NCBI GenBank assembly: GCA_018064885.1
Contig: JAGHUI010000051.1
Coordinates: 1 to 59,188, forward strand
Direction of reading: 5' to 3'
Origin: Candidatus Minthosoma equi
GTDB lineage: Bacteria; Bacteroidota; Bacteroidia; Bacteroidales; Bacteroidaceae
DNA: 59,188 nucleotides
Shown here: positions 20,740 to 57,782 of the stretch, one piece after another
Numbering within the stretch: position 1 is the first letter of the stretch
Layout of the letters: the number at the start of each line of letters is the position of its first letter
Notes under the pieces: generated by a model
What the model was told of the DNA's origin: nothing
Seen by the model: only the letters and a program-made list of their open reading frames with translations
The model's database searches: none
Position numbers and translations under genes: made by a program

Positions 20740-20771
20740 CAAAGGTACGATTAAGCGAGCGAAATACCAAA
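20740..20771 (-). promoter_or_regulatory. Promoter of the DUF2207 gene
   Basis: On the minus strand TTTG (20768-20771), exactly 20 bp, then TACCTTTG (20740-20747). The leader is about 30 nt. The spacer and -33 element belong to the first 73-bp repeat unit. Confidence 0.75.
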
Positions 20772-20920
20772 TTTATTTGAGGATTTCCGAGCGTGAGTAC
20801 CTTCGGCGAAGCCAACGTTACGATTAAGCGAGCGAAATACCAAATTTATTTGAGGATTTCCGAGCGTGAGTACCTTCGGCGACAGCCAACGGCACGATTA
20901 AACGAGTGAAATACCAAATT
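20747..20920. repeat. 73-bp tandem repeat, two full units and a partial third
   Basis: Units start at 20747, 20820 and 20894 (periods 73 and 74), each opening ACGATTAA(G/A)CGAG. Unit 3 stops after the ATACCAAATT segment. Each full unit contains the CAAATTTATTTGAG...GTGAGTACC block also seen at metG. Unit 1 ends with a CTTC-GGC-GAAG hairpin near 20801-20811. In units 2 and 3 the -7 position has decayed to TAACGTTG and TGCCGTTG on the minus strand. Confidence 0.9.
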
Positions 20921-20958
20921 ATCCAGCAATTTTTCCTGTCATTCACCCGCATATTATC

Positions 20959-21043
20959 TACATTTCATTGTTTGAAATGTACATTCTTTGTTTGAAACAT
21001 ACATTTCATTGTTTGAAACGTACATTTCAAACAATGAAATGCA
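20959..21043. repeat. Array A: 21-bp-phased palindromic repeats ending in an inverted copy
   Basis: Three direct units (20959-20979, 20980-20999, 21000-21020), each containing TTTCATTGTTTGAAA or a near form, are followed by an inverted copy (21021-21043). The third unit and the inverted copy form a perfect 17-bp stem (21002-21018 with 21025-21041) and a 6-nt loop. Array B (44236-44321) has the same unit and layout. Confidence 0.9.
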
Positions 21044-21056
21044 GGTAAACACGAAG

Positions 21057-44172: not shown

Positions 44173-44235
44173 CATACCCGCAAATACCGAGGTATGATAC
44201 CACGTTTTCTTGCCCACTTTTACCTGCATGTTATC

Positions 44236-44321
44236 TATATTTCATTATTTGAAACGTACGTTTCATTGTTTGAAATATACATTTCGTTGTTTGAAATGTA
44301 CGTTTCAAACAATGAAATGTA
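44236..44321. repeat. Array B: 21-bp-phased palindromic repeats ending in an inverted copy
   Basis: Three units of exactly 21 bp (44236-44256, 44257-44277, 44278-44298) are followed by an inverted copy (44299-44321). Arms 44278-44296 and 44303-44321 pair over 19 bp with one G-T, loop TGTACG. GAAACGTACGTTTC at a unit junction is itself a perfect palindrome. The unit and layout are those of array A. The flank at 44221-44235 (TACCTGCATGTTATC) resembles the flank of array A. Confidence 0.9.
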
Positions 44322-44416
44322 GCGTAATGCGAGCGTATTGTACTCGCAATATGCAGATAAAGGTATTCGCAATAACGAGCAAATGCCTATAAAACATACG
44401 ATTGCTTTAAAACAAA

Positions 44417-55469: not shown

Positions 55470-56336
55470 TCAAACGGAATCTACAATTATAGTCCTATGC
55501 TGGCTTCTTGTCCACTCTTTCGCGGCTTTTGCAACGATATCTTTGGTCTTATTATTTAAATATGTGTCTTGGAATCTTTGCCAAATGTATTCTACCGCTT
55601 TTTCCGAAGGATGAATCATGTCGTCTGCATAGAAGCGGTAATCACGAAGCTCATCCATCATGATTTCGTAAGAAGGGAAGTATTCCACCCCCAAGTGATC
55701 TACTGCCATGAGAAGCGTGCCTTTGCTCACCTGATTGGTATGGTATCCGTCTCGCTTATGACGTATAGGACTCACCGTAAAAAGTATTTTCATCTTTGGA
55801 TTGACAGCGTTCAACGCATGAAGGAGCGTTTTCCATTCATCAACTATTTCCGCTACGGACAACTGCTGTCTGGCAAAAAGGCTGTCTAGCTGCTTATGAC
55901 AGTTGGCAACGAGCATTCCATTTTCCTTCAATCGGTAAATAATGGATGTGCCAAGCGTAACTATTAGTATGTCTGCTTCACGAAGAAATCTGCTCACTTC
56001 TGCTGTCGTGAGATTTATTTTTGTTACAAGATCTTCACACGAGGTTGAAGAAAAACTACTATGATGCATCCATGAATGCCAGATGCCAGAAGCATCTTGG
56101 ATAATTTCCTCCGACTGCTCACCAATGCATTTCTCATCAACACACCTCTGCAACGAAGCAGCTATACTGGCAGGATTGTAGAGAGTTCCAAAAGGATTCA
56201 CCAATGTATGAAAGCCGCCTTTCGTCATTTTCTTTCCAATTTCATCAGCAAAACATGAGCCTAAAAGCAGAATTTTCGACTCTGGCTCTATCTGCCATTT
56301 AGATTTTGGAATATCTATTTTTGTCATCAGTTCCAT
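55470..56336 (-). CDS. GSCFA domain-containing protein
   Basis: A 288-residue protein named for its motif, here LLLGSCFADEIGKKM near residues 22-36. Further marks are NPFGTLYNPASIA, ILIVTLGTSIIYRL and the C-terminal YRFYADDMIHPSEKAVEYIW with the Asp/His pair of an SGNH-like hydrolase. The family is widespread in Bacteroidetes and of unknown substrate. The frame opens at a GTG at 56357, but the ATG at 56336 (MELMTKIDIPKS) or 56327 is more likely. It is the first gene of a GSCFA, murF-alr, C10 protease unit. Confidence 0.87.
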   Translation of the reverse strand: MELMTKIDIPKSKWQIEPESKILLLGSCFADEIGKKMTKGGFHTLVNPFGTLYNPASIAASLQRCVDEKCIGEQSEEIIQDASGIWHSWMHHSSFSSTSCEDLVTKINLTTAEVSRFLREADILIVTLGTSIIYRLKENGMLVANCHKQLDSLFARQQLSVAEIVDEWKTLLHALNAVNPKMKILFTVSPIRHKRDGYHTNQVSKGTLLMAVDHLGVEYFPSYEIMMDELRDYRFYADDMIHPSEKAVEYIWQRFQDTYLNNKTKDIVAKAAKEWTRSQHRTIIVDSV

Positions 56337-56444
56337 AACGAAACATAAAAAATACACATCTTTATATTATATAGCACTCGAATTTATAATTATACAAAAC
56401 ACGAAGTTCGAGAATAAATTACACTTCACTTTGCTAACTGAAGG

Positions 56445-56452: not shown

Positions 56453-56511
56453 CGGAATTTTATTAAAATGGTGACTATTTCATTAAGGTTTTTAATACGG
56501 AACATAAAAAA

Positions 56512-56545
56512 AGCACCGCCTGTGTGATGTCACATAGACGATGCT
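56512..56545 (-). terminator. Minus-strand terminator of the candidate small RNA
   Basis: A stem of about 13 pairs with two mismatches joins AGCACCGCCTGTGTG (56512-56526) to CACATAGACGATGCT (56531-56545), with a 4-nt loop. On the minus strand seven T follow (56506-56512). Confidence 0.7.
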
Positions 56546-56620
56546 CGTATCATTGAAAACACATCCCTCGTATTTACAACATGTATTATCCCGCATATTC
56601 AACATGAATTTACCCGAAAA

Positions 56621-56704
56621 GAAAACCGGACAAAAGCCTTGGCTCGTGCGACAAAGCTTTTGACTCGTTAGCCAAAAGCTTTGATTCATTAGACAAAAGT
56701 TTTG
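56621..56704. repeat. Array C: four units of exactly 21 bp
   Basis: Units 56621-56641, 56642-56662, 56663-56683 and 56684-56704 each end ACAAAAGCTTTTG or a near form, itself a palindrome. The flank CCGCATATT about 22 bp to the left also stands directly left of array A. Confidence 0.85.
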
Positions 56705-56815
56705 TTTTGTTTGCTTTTTTTCATTAGTTGCAAATAATAAAAGAAAAGGCAACTGATGAAAAAAAACGATAACGGAAGAATTTACTTGAACTTTTCAAGT
56801 ATTTCTTCTTGAACA

Positions 56816-56846
56816 CAAAGGTAAGAATTTTTTTTGAATTTGTCAA
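56816..56846 (-). promoter_or_regulatory. Promoter of the candidate small RNA
   Basis: On the minus strand TTG (56844-56846), exactly 20 bp, then TACCTTTG (56816-56823). It points into array C with no convincing ORF. Confidence 0.65.
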
Positions 56847-57139: not shown

Positions 57140-57200
57140 CAATGTCAAAAACAAAATGACACTTTTAATTTTAATTATTAACACTCAAAATTTAGATTTT

Positions 57201-57782
57201 ATGAAAAAGTTCATCATCGCTCTCTTAGCAGCTTTAACACTCGGTATTTTTGAAACAGTAGCTTTCGCAGCAACACCAAACGACAACGCTGGAACTTATT
57301 ATGGCAAAAAGAAGCACGGTAAGTACGAAGGTTATGGAGTTTATGTTTTTAACTGTGGCGACAAGTACGAAGGCAATTTTAGCAACGGAGTTTTTGAAGG
57401 CGAAGGCATTTACACTTATGCAAACGGCGACACTTACGTAGGCGAATTTAAGAATGGTAAGCAGAACGGTCACGGTGTAGCATACTACGAGAAGACTGGT
57501 AATATTTATGAAGGCAATTTTATCAACGGTGCACGCGAAGGCAAGGGCAAGTTTACATGGGCTAACGGTGCTGAATATGAAGGTGATTTCGTAGCTAACG
57601 CTCGCACAGGTCACGGTAAGCTCGTAGCAAGCACAGGTGATATTTATGTAGGCGATTTTAAGGATGGTGCATACGAAGGTAACGGTACACTTTACAAGGT
57701 TAACGGTCGTATTTATGCAGGAACTTGGAAGGCTAACCACATTACTTCTCTCGACTACAGCGCACTTTCAATTGCTGAATAA
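57201..57782 (+). CDS. Secreted MORN-repeat protein
   Basis: A 193-residue protein with signal peptide MKKFIIALLAALTLGIFETV and a cleavage site near AFAA. After a short KKKHGKYEGYG segment it is almost entirely MORN repeats of about 23 residues: YEGNFSNGVFEGEGIY, YVGEFKNGKQNGHGVA, YEGNFINGAREGKGKF, YEGDFVANARTGHGKL and YVGDFKDGAYEGNGTL. MORN repeats form a beta-hairpin rod used for protein or lipid contact; no enzyme domain is attached. The frame is open to 57012, but that part precedes the promoter, so the ATG at 57201 is used. The promoter is strong and the gene is followed by a clear terminator. Confidence 0.85.
   Translation: MKKFIIALLAALTLGIFETVAFAATPNDNAGTYYGKKKHGKYEGYGVYVFNCGDKYEGNFSNGVFEGEGIYTYANGDTYVGEFKNGKQNGHGVAYYEKTGNIYEGNFINGAREGKGKFTWANGAEYEGDFVANARTGHGKLVASTGDIYVGDFKDGAYEGNGTLYKVNGRIYAGTWKANHITSLDYSALSIAE

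Follow-up and report, generated by a model that had tools for sequence, protein, structure and literature searches.

Array C of Candidatus Minthosoma equi: a candidate multicopy structured RNA gene on a repeat with a shared tail

What kind of element is array C, a run of 21-bp units that has a core of its own and stands beside the same flank as arrays A and B of the same contig? The window analyzed here, 59,188 nucleotides of the gut bacterium Candidatus Minthosoma equi, is the entire contig C65 of its genome (3.51 Mb, 114 contigs). An earlier reading of the letters (herein the sequence-only reading) had proposed that A, B and C are members of one element family whose core unit can change while period and flank are kept.

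Layout of array C and its copies

Array C comprises four contiguous 21-bp units (56629-56712), palindromic in near forms, and is flanked by a GSCFA-family gene (55470-56357, minus strand) and a MORN-repeat gene (57189-57782, plus strand). Self-identity at lag 21 is 0.69 over positions 56626-56704 (lags 15-20 and 22-29 give only 0.15-0.37), and none of 20,000 mononucleotide shuffles attains this value at lags from 15 to 29, which bears out the four contiguous units of the sequence-only reading; Tandem Repeats Finder picks up part of the array. The span that had been proposed, 56585-56704, was nearly right, and the palindrome CAAAAGCTTTTG is present in near forms, the exact 12-mer being absent from the window array.

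A BLAST search with 56585-56730 finds 23 separate places in the own genome (E ≤ 1.6e-6, array C included), six of them cut by contig ends, so that halves of one physical copy may count twice. The six cut copies were left out of the first alignment and of the covariance model built on the other 17 (R1); 22 of the 23 places keep the promoter side. Read on the minus strand, family-C copies begin with a promoter pattern and a leader; the four 21-nt units come next, then a stretch rich in T, a predicted terminator, and finally the 23-bp tail units. The window copy is laid out as follows.

56629-56649, 56650-56670, 56671-56691 and 56692-56712: array C units in plus-strand phase
56816..56846, minus strand: promoter pattern TTG-N20-TANNTTTG, the same pattern as in the other family-C copies with upstream sequence (22/22 in all)
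56705..56815, minus strand: 5' leader of the long class, with two hairpins, one after the start and a later one whose inner stem is GTTGC/GCAAC (leader z -6.2; swapped-arm test below)
56686..56706, minus strand: array unit 1 in RNA-strand phase
56665..56685, minus strand: array unit 2 in RNA-strand phase
56644..56664, minus strand: array unit 3 in RNA-strand phase
56623..56643, minus strand: array unit 4, which with unit 3 makes the terminator hairpin of the family consensus
56613..56629, minus strand: T-rich stretch behind unit 4 (TTTTCTTTT in the window, T8 in many copies), with a predicted 3' end at about 56617
56539..56618, minus strand: tail of degenerate units of about 21-24 bp past the terminator, one of them holding CCGCATATT; low profile score in the window copy
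56506..56548, minus strand: second hairpin resembling a terminator, with T7 (z -5.7), separating the element from the GSCFA gene

A shorter terminator-like site is flagged at 56634-56609, in the region of unit 4. All 22 family-C copies that keep upstream sequence have the promoter pattern, TTG-N19-21-TANNTTTG, no more than 200 nt upstream; its start, counted from unit 1, is at 73-74 nt in 16 copies, 130-131 nt in four, 85 nt in one and 142 nt in one, the window copy. The intergenic background holds the pattern 0.62 times per kb and strand. It is also found within 260 nt in seven of the eight family-C copies of a second genome (G001, see below), within 200 nt in 10 of the 11 copies of a further class, D1, and at 2 of 38 sides of class A, counted on 19 of 22 loci after exclusion of three cut by contig ends. 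Upstream of the promoter, no conservation is seen by eye in family C. From its motif, we take the pattern to be the Bacteroidota sigma-ABfr type (-33/-7). This naming also leans on the use of the motif in PMC11697453.

We consider it somewhat probable (about 0.57) that array C supplies the hairpin-and-terminator half of a small structured RNA gene some 200 nt long, carried on a non-autonomous repeat that shares its tail. The gene would lie on the minus strand from 56815 to about 56617, as one of at least 22 dispersed copies. The letters hold a promoter pattern, predicted leader hairpins, four units able to pair 1 with 2 and 3 with 4, and a T-rich stretch; the gene would be transcribed, with its 3' end at units 3-4.

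A tail unit beside cores A, C and D

Two copies of class A lie in the same window.

20958..21044, no strand assigned: array A, a class A core 87 bp long in which one unit has 20 bp; the class is promoterless and two-tailed
44235..44322, no strand assigned: array B, another class A copy (88 bp)

The flank on which the sequence-only reading rested is where it had been placed: CCGCATATT stands to the left of C (56591-56599) and of A (20947-20955), and CTGCATGTT to the left of B. CCGCATATT represents, in degenerate form, a 23-bp tail unit that A, C and D have in common. As a bare 9-mer it has 16 matches in the window with up to one mismatch, against 12.5 expected, and was dropped as a mark of the element since it is not enriched. 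A tail pattern, ATACGAG-N12-18-ATACGAG, was rejected with 10 matches in the genome against 15 for the reversed control, all ten having 23-bp spacing. A two-unit core pattern with three mismatches was likewise discarded (0 matches).

Class A occupies 26 places in the own genome (E < 1e-11). A core was obtained at 22 of 23 inspected loci, 88 bp long in 21 and 87 bp in window array A; one shorter copy yielded none. In most copies of this class the 23-bp units point outwards from either end of the core, though not clearly on every side. Array A is adjoined by a 73-bp repeat in 2.5 copies (window 20740-20920). The third core, D, was obtained by tail-pattern search at 15 places: 11 of the promoter type (D1), three two-tailed (D2; L116, L117 and L119) and one, L115, that seems rearranged, with a leader followed by an inverted tail and core. 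D1 copies have four units, with the exception of L114 (three) and L104 (five). Two-unit tail scores in the two-tailed D elements are 2.7 to 15.6 over six sides, against a background median of -15.

Cores A, C and D each consist mostly of four near-palindromic 21-bp units beside the common 23-bp tail unit, in fixed phase. A tail profile made from 37 class A tail units, both window copies left out, was run on 11 D1 copies and on those C copies that retain sufficient tail (17 of 23). The best match falls at offset 0 or 23 in 17/17 C copies and at 4, 26 or 27 (within 1 nt) in 11/11 D1 copies. Two-unit scores exceed those of 442 intergenic background windows (Mann-Whitney p ~1e-9 for C and ~1e-8 for D1); the 99th percentile of the background is passed by 6/17 C and 8/11 D1 copies with two units and by 0/17 and 0/11 with one. 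Few copies have a poorer tail than the window copy, whose best one-unit score is 0.5 against a background median of -2.1. The fixed phase and the two-unit scores argue that the common flank is real, and the single-unit scores, never above the 99th percentile, that its unit is loose.

The proposal that the core changes as period and flank stay is therefore largely right, with three cores beside one 23-bp tail unit. The grouping of A and C into one element family holds for the flank module and not for the architecture: C is arranged like an RNA gene with a promoter of its own and a terminator at its end, and A is promoterless, usually with tails on both sides. The tail units behind the RNA gene, found also with classes A and D, may be a DNA module by which non-autonomous intergenic elements spread or recombine. 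More tentatively, A, C and D could form a modular superfamily in which the common 23-bp tail spreads interchangeable four-unit palindromic cores of fixed 21-bp pitch, some of which gained promoters and became amplified structured RNA genes. The numbers above show different cores of the same pitch behind one flank unit; were the superfamily real, it would give a genome a route to new multicopy RNA families.

Searches for a partner found no transposase and no proven mobility. Across the genome a single ORF passes the Y1_Tnp cut-off, and barely (23.5 vs 23 bits): a RAYT-like ORF of 449 aa on contig C35 (L101 508-1857, with MPDHCHVLVHV). The only trace of A, C or D on that contig is a 21-bp match at chance level (E 0.45). 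A RAYT partner was accordingly rejected, the C35 ORF being without repeat copies and one further hit, on C59, being sub-threshold; the C59 hit sits in what we take to be a FecR/sigma-factor region. Phage, viral and plasmid collections gave no match to the element, and Rfam had nothing at the gathering threshold near the array, with sub-threshold matches only at the array itself.

Folding, covariation and rival explanations

The predicted transcript of the window copy folds with z -6.6, and copy L014 reaches -9.7. In the minimum-energy fold of the window copy, units 2-3 are nested within 1-4, rather than paired 1-2 and 3-4; the consensus terminator is the hairpin of units 3-4 with its T-run, which is interrupted in the window copy. 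Covariation was assessed on 25 rows (17 from the own genome and eight from G001), 24 of them distinct, with L072 of G001 nearly identical to L009 of the own genome. For the two-hairpin structure (1-2, 3-4), 19 cells carry changes on both sides, where shuffles give 9.2 ± 2.3 (0/500 as high), and the covariation score is 0.096 against 0.073 (0/500); double-changed pairs (5; 285/500 shuffles as high) and further pair types (15; 324/500) are not in excess. With the structure slid by +1 the score is 0.098, though 56% of cells are then paired, against 89.5% unslid. Palindromes within units have 6 double-changed cells against 6.6 in shuffles (344/500) and no excess in score either; they exceed shuffles in pairs with a double change (4 vs 2.2; 12/500). 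The alternative 2-3 pairing, that of an antiterminator, has zero covariation signal.

Leaders fall into two classes, long and short. Long leaders fold below shuffles in 11/11 cases (five own, six G001; z -1.7 to -6.6), and short ones fold weakly (z 0.6 to -3.1). The GTTGC/GCAAC stem is found in 9 of the 11 long leaders, and in the swapped-arm test the outer arms pair better with their own partner than with exchanged ones (p = 0.006, n = 9; dropping a near-duplicate leaves n = 8 and p = 0.011). Against mononucleotide shuffles, the stem of the first hairpin gives combined p values of 1e-6 (long) and 0.001 (short), the sequences not being independent. Because the window copy and six of the seven G001 copies with a promoter belong to the long class, the short-leader class looks like a later amplification in the own genome. 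Covariation and the swapped-arm test modestly favor an RNA. In D1, no clear terminator is seen by eye.

The most likely reading is that the promoter-bearing C and D1 elements are multicopy structured RNA genes on a repeat whose tail A and D2 share, for which we infer transcript, mobility and target. Classes C and D1 would then carry an expressed RNA, most likely acting in trans as a multicopy sRNA or a protein-binding RNA.

The same letters could instead belong to a DNA-only element, MITE- or REP-like, in which the palindromic units, spaced two helical turns apart, serve as cruciforms or as binding sites for a protein, the promoter being incidental. Such an element would fit class A and D2, which have a core of the same kind without a promoter, the common 21-24-bp intergenic arrays of the genus with their lack of inward promoters (0/32, below), and the one within-unit covariation measure above shuffles. 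It accounts poorly for a promoter upstream in 22/22 C copies at mainly two distances, for double-changed cells that exceed shuffles between units 1-2 and 3-4 and not within units, and for leader hairpins maintained despite changing letters; we regard it as rather unlikely.

A cis-acting leader or attenuator of the downstream gene, in which units 3-4 would terminate and 2-3 antiterminate, is improbable. The array units are mutually complementary, the window copy favors the nested fold, and 8 of the 13 family-C copies with a readable neighbor (22 copies examined) point the same way as the downstream gene, as an attenuator would have it. Against this stand the absence of covariation in the 2-3 pairing and the neighbors, mostly unrelated genes that differ in orientation and family; these varied neighbors and the second terminator-like hairpin that precedes the GSCFA gene argue against a simple leader. 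Among 184 ORFs at 62 loci, no recurrent neighbor gene or transposase was noticed; besides ORFs inside the elements, the recurrent groups are presumably leucine-rich-repeat-like proteins, sigma factors and one small DNA-binding-like family. One family-C copy lies close to a cobalamin riboswitch (L005 611-805).

Distribution and known systems

An exact core pattern matches one named record, contig C112 in a MAG of Candidatus Minthosoma caballi (G001; taxonomy Bacteroidaceae). Across 45 genomes of the genus (G000 included), R1 scores highly only in the own genome and G001; matches in G020, G022 and G038 (best E 9e-8) were rejected as other arrays or a lone hairpin on reading, and 59 other genomes sampled from the order have none at E 0.001. 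D1 is present once in G001. Cores like A and D (the linker of A, the palindrome of D) occur in G022, G036 and G019, with no clear tail of the family kind (ten sides, -22.5 to 2.8; core ends rough). The GSCFA-locus query matches 40 other genus genomes, and the element part is matched there in 0/40; the gene DNA is mostly 64-72% identical, and the intergenic DNA is too diverged to define an insertion site.

Intergenic arrays of period 21-24 bp are widespread in the genus, with units that vary by species. Eight genus genomes, sampled over 520 kb of contigs that were picked without regard to arrays, have 32 at period 21-24 (a range fixed after seeing the data), 2 at 18-20 and none at 25-28. Not every unit of the 32 is palindromic; their promoters point inward in 0/32 and outward in 8, so that the RNA reading does not extend to the arrays of other genus members. 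Twenty other genomes of the order (610 kb, of which 78 kb is intergenic) have 7 arrays, and the genus has 32 in its 56 kb of intergenic DNA. The own genome (459 kb) shows a smaller excess: 11 arrays at 21-24, 8 at 18-20 and none at 25-28. A 50-kb stretch of E. coli, a control too small to weigh, has no arrays. A strict palindrome test on the consensus units is weak, with p ≤ 0.05 in 9/56 intergenic 21-24-bp arrays and 2/94 at period 10-17, and a rule with loops allowed and a higher score limit retains 8/56. By eye, nine genus loci (L183-L187, L195, L196, L201 and L202) hold 23-24-bp arrays with units such as GGTGTGAGTCACACC or ACCGACATCGTCGACATCGGT and have short inverted flanks in common, approximately CCTC...GAGG, several with CTTTCAG/GAAAG; here again one flank accompanies different cores. 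L074, L078 and L081 of G020, another species of the genus, are 22-bp arrays with the core AAAGCTTT.

Our literature searches showed no earlier description of these elements among the records listed. The statement of the sequence-only reading that no element of this behavior is described was nonetheless too strong, since BrickBuilt and PgRS/MITE464 of Porphyromonas gingivalis also join a minisatellite to a leader and a tail (PMC4596501). As described there, they are intergenic, in about 20 copies, with 23-nt tandem units that have a variable half, a leader and a tail, and promoter activity (PMC4596501); element C resembles them, its promoter being predicted. Membership in or close kinship with them is very improbable, and it fails at the level of sequence, the IS5-like TIR and the published 23-nt unit both being absent: the BrickBuilt TIR GAGACCTTTGCA (≤2 mismatches) occurs at 0/23 C, 1/23 A and 1/15 D loci against 23/400 background windows, and unit identity is 11/23, equaled by 1620/2000 shuffles. 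Unlike BrickBuilt, the core here is mostly of fixed length, with four palindromic 21-bp units.

REP, BIME and REPIN elements with RAYT are short, dispersed intergenic palindromes, often paired, and the present family is also short, dispersed, intergenic and palindromic (PMC3733652). Unlike the REP tag, the CTAC...GTAG ends of class A (class A only) sit inside the paired stem, and unlike REP/RAYT systems, the RAYT-like gene on C35 is not flanked by the repeat.

The ToxI arrays of type III toxin-antitoxin systems consist of a promoter, tandem RNA repeats and a terminator, an order that family C shares, with its terminator predicted. They differ from the elements here in that the unit is 21 nt and in that the neighbors of the window copy (window copy only) are the GSCFA and MORN genes. 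ToxI is named in PMC8040213.

FopS is a set of 14 paralogous sRNA genes of Bacteroides thetaiotaomicron with canonical sigma-ABfr promoters and a Rho-independent terminator, each RNA combining a seed in a single-stranded 5' region with one terminator hairpin. Family C is likewise multicopy, with predicted promoters of the sigma-ABfr type and a predicted terminator, in the same NCBI family, Bacteroidaceae (PMC11697453). The leader hairpins, the four-unit 21-nt array and the shared 23-bp DNA tail set it apart from FopS as described. If the reading of array C as part of a structured RNA gene is right, repeat elements dispersed through a genome would give rise to multicopy RNA genes, joining intergenic minisatellites and paralogous sRNA families, which are usually studied apart in Bacteroidota.
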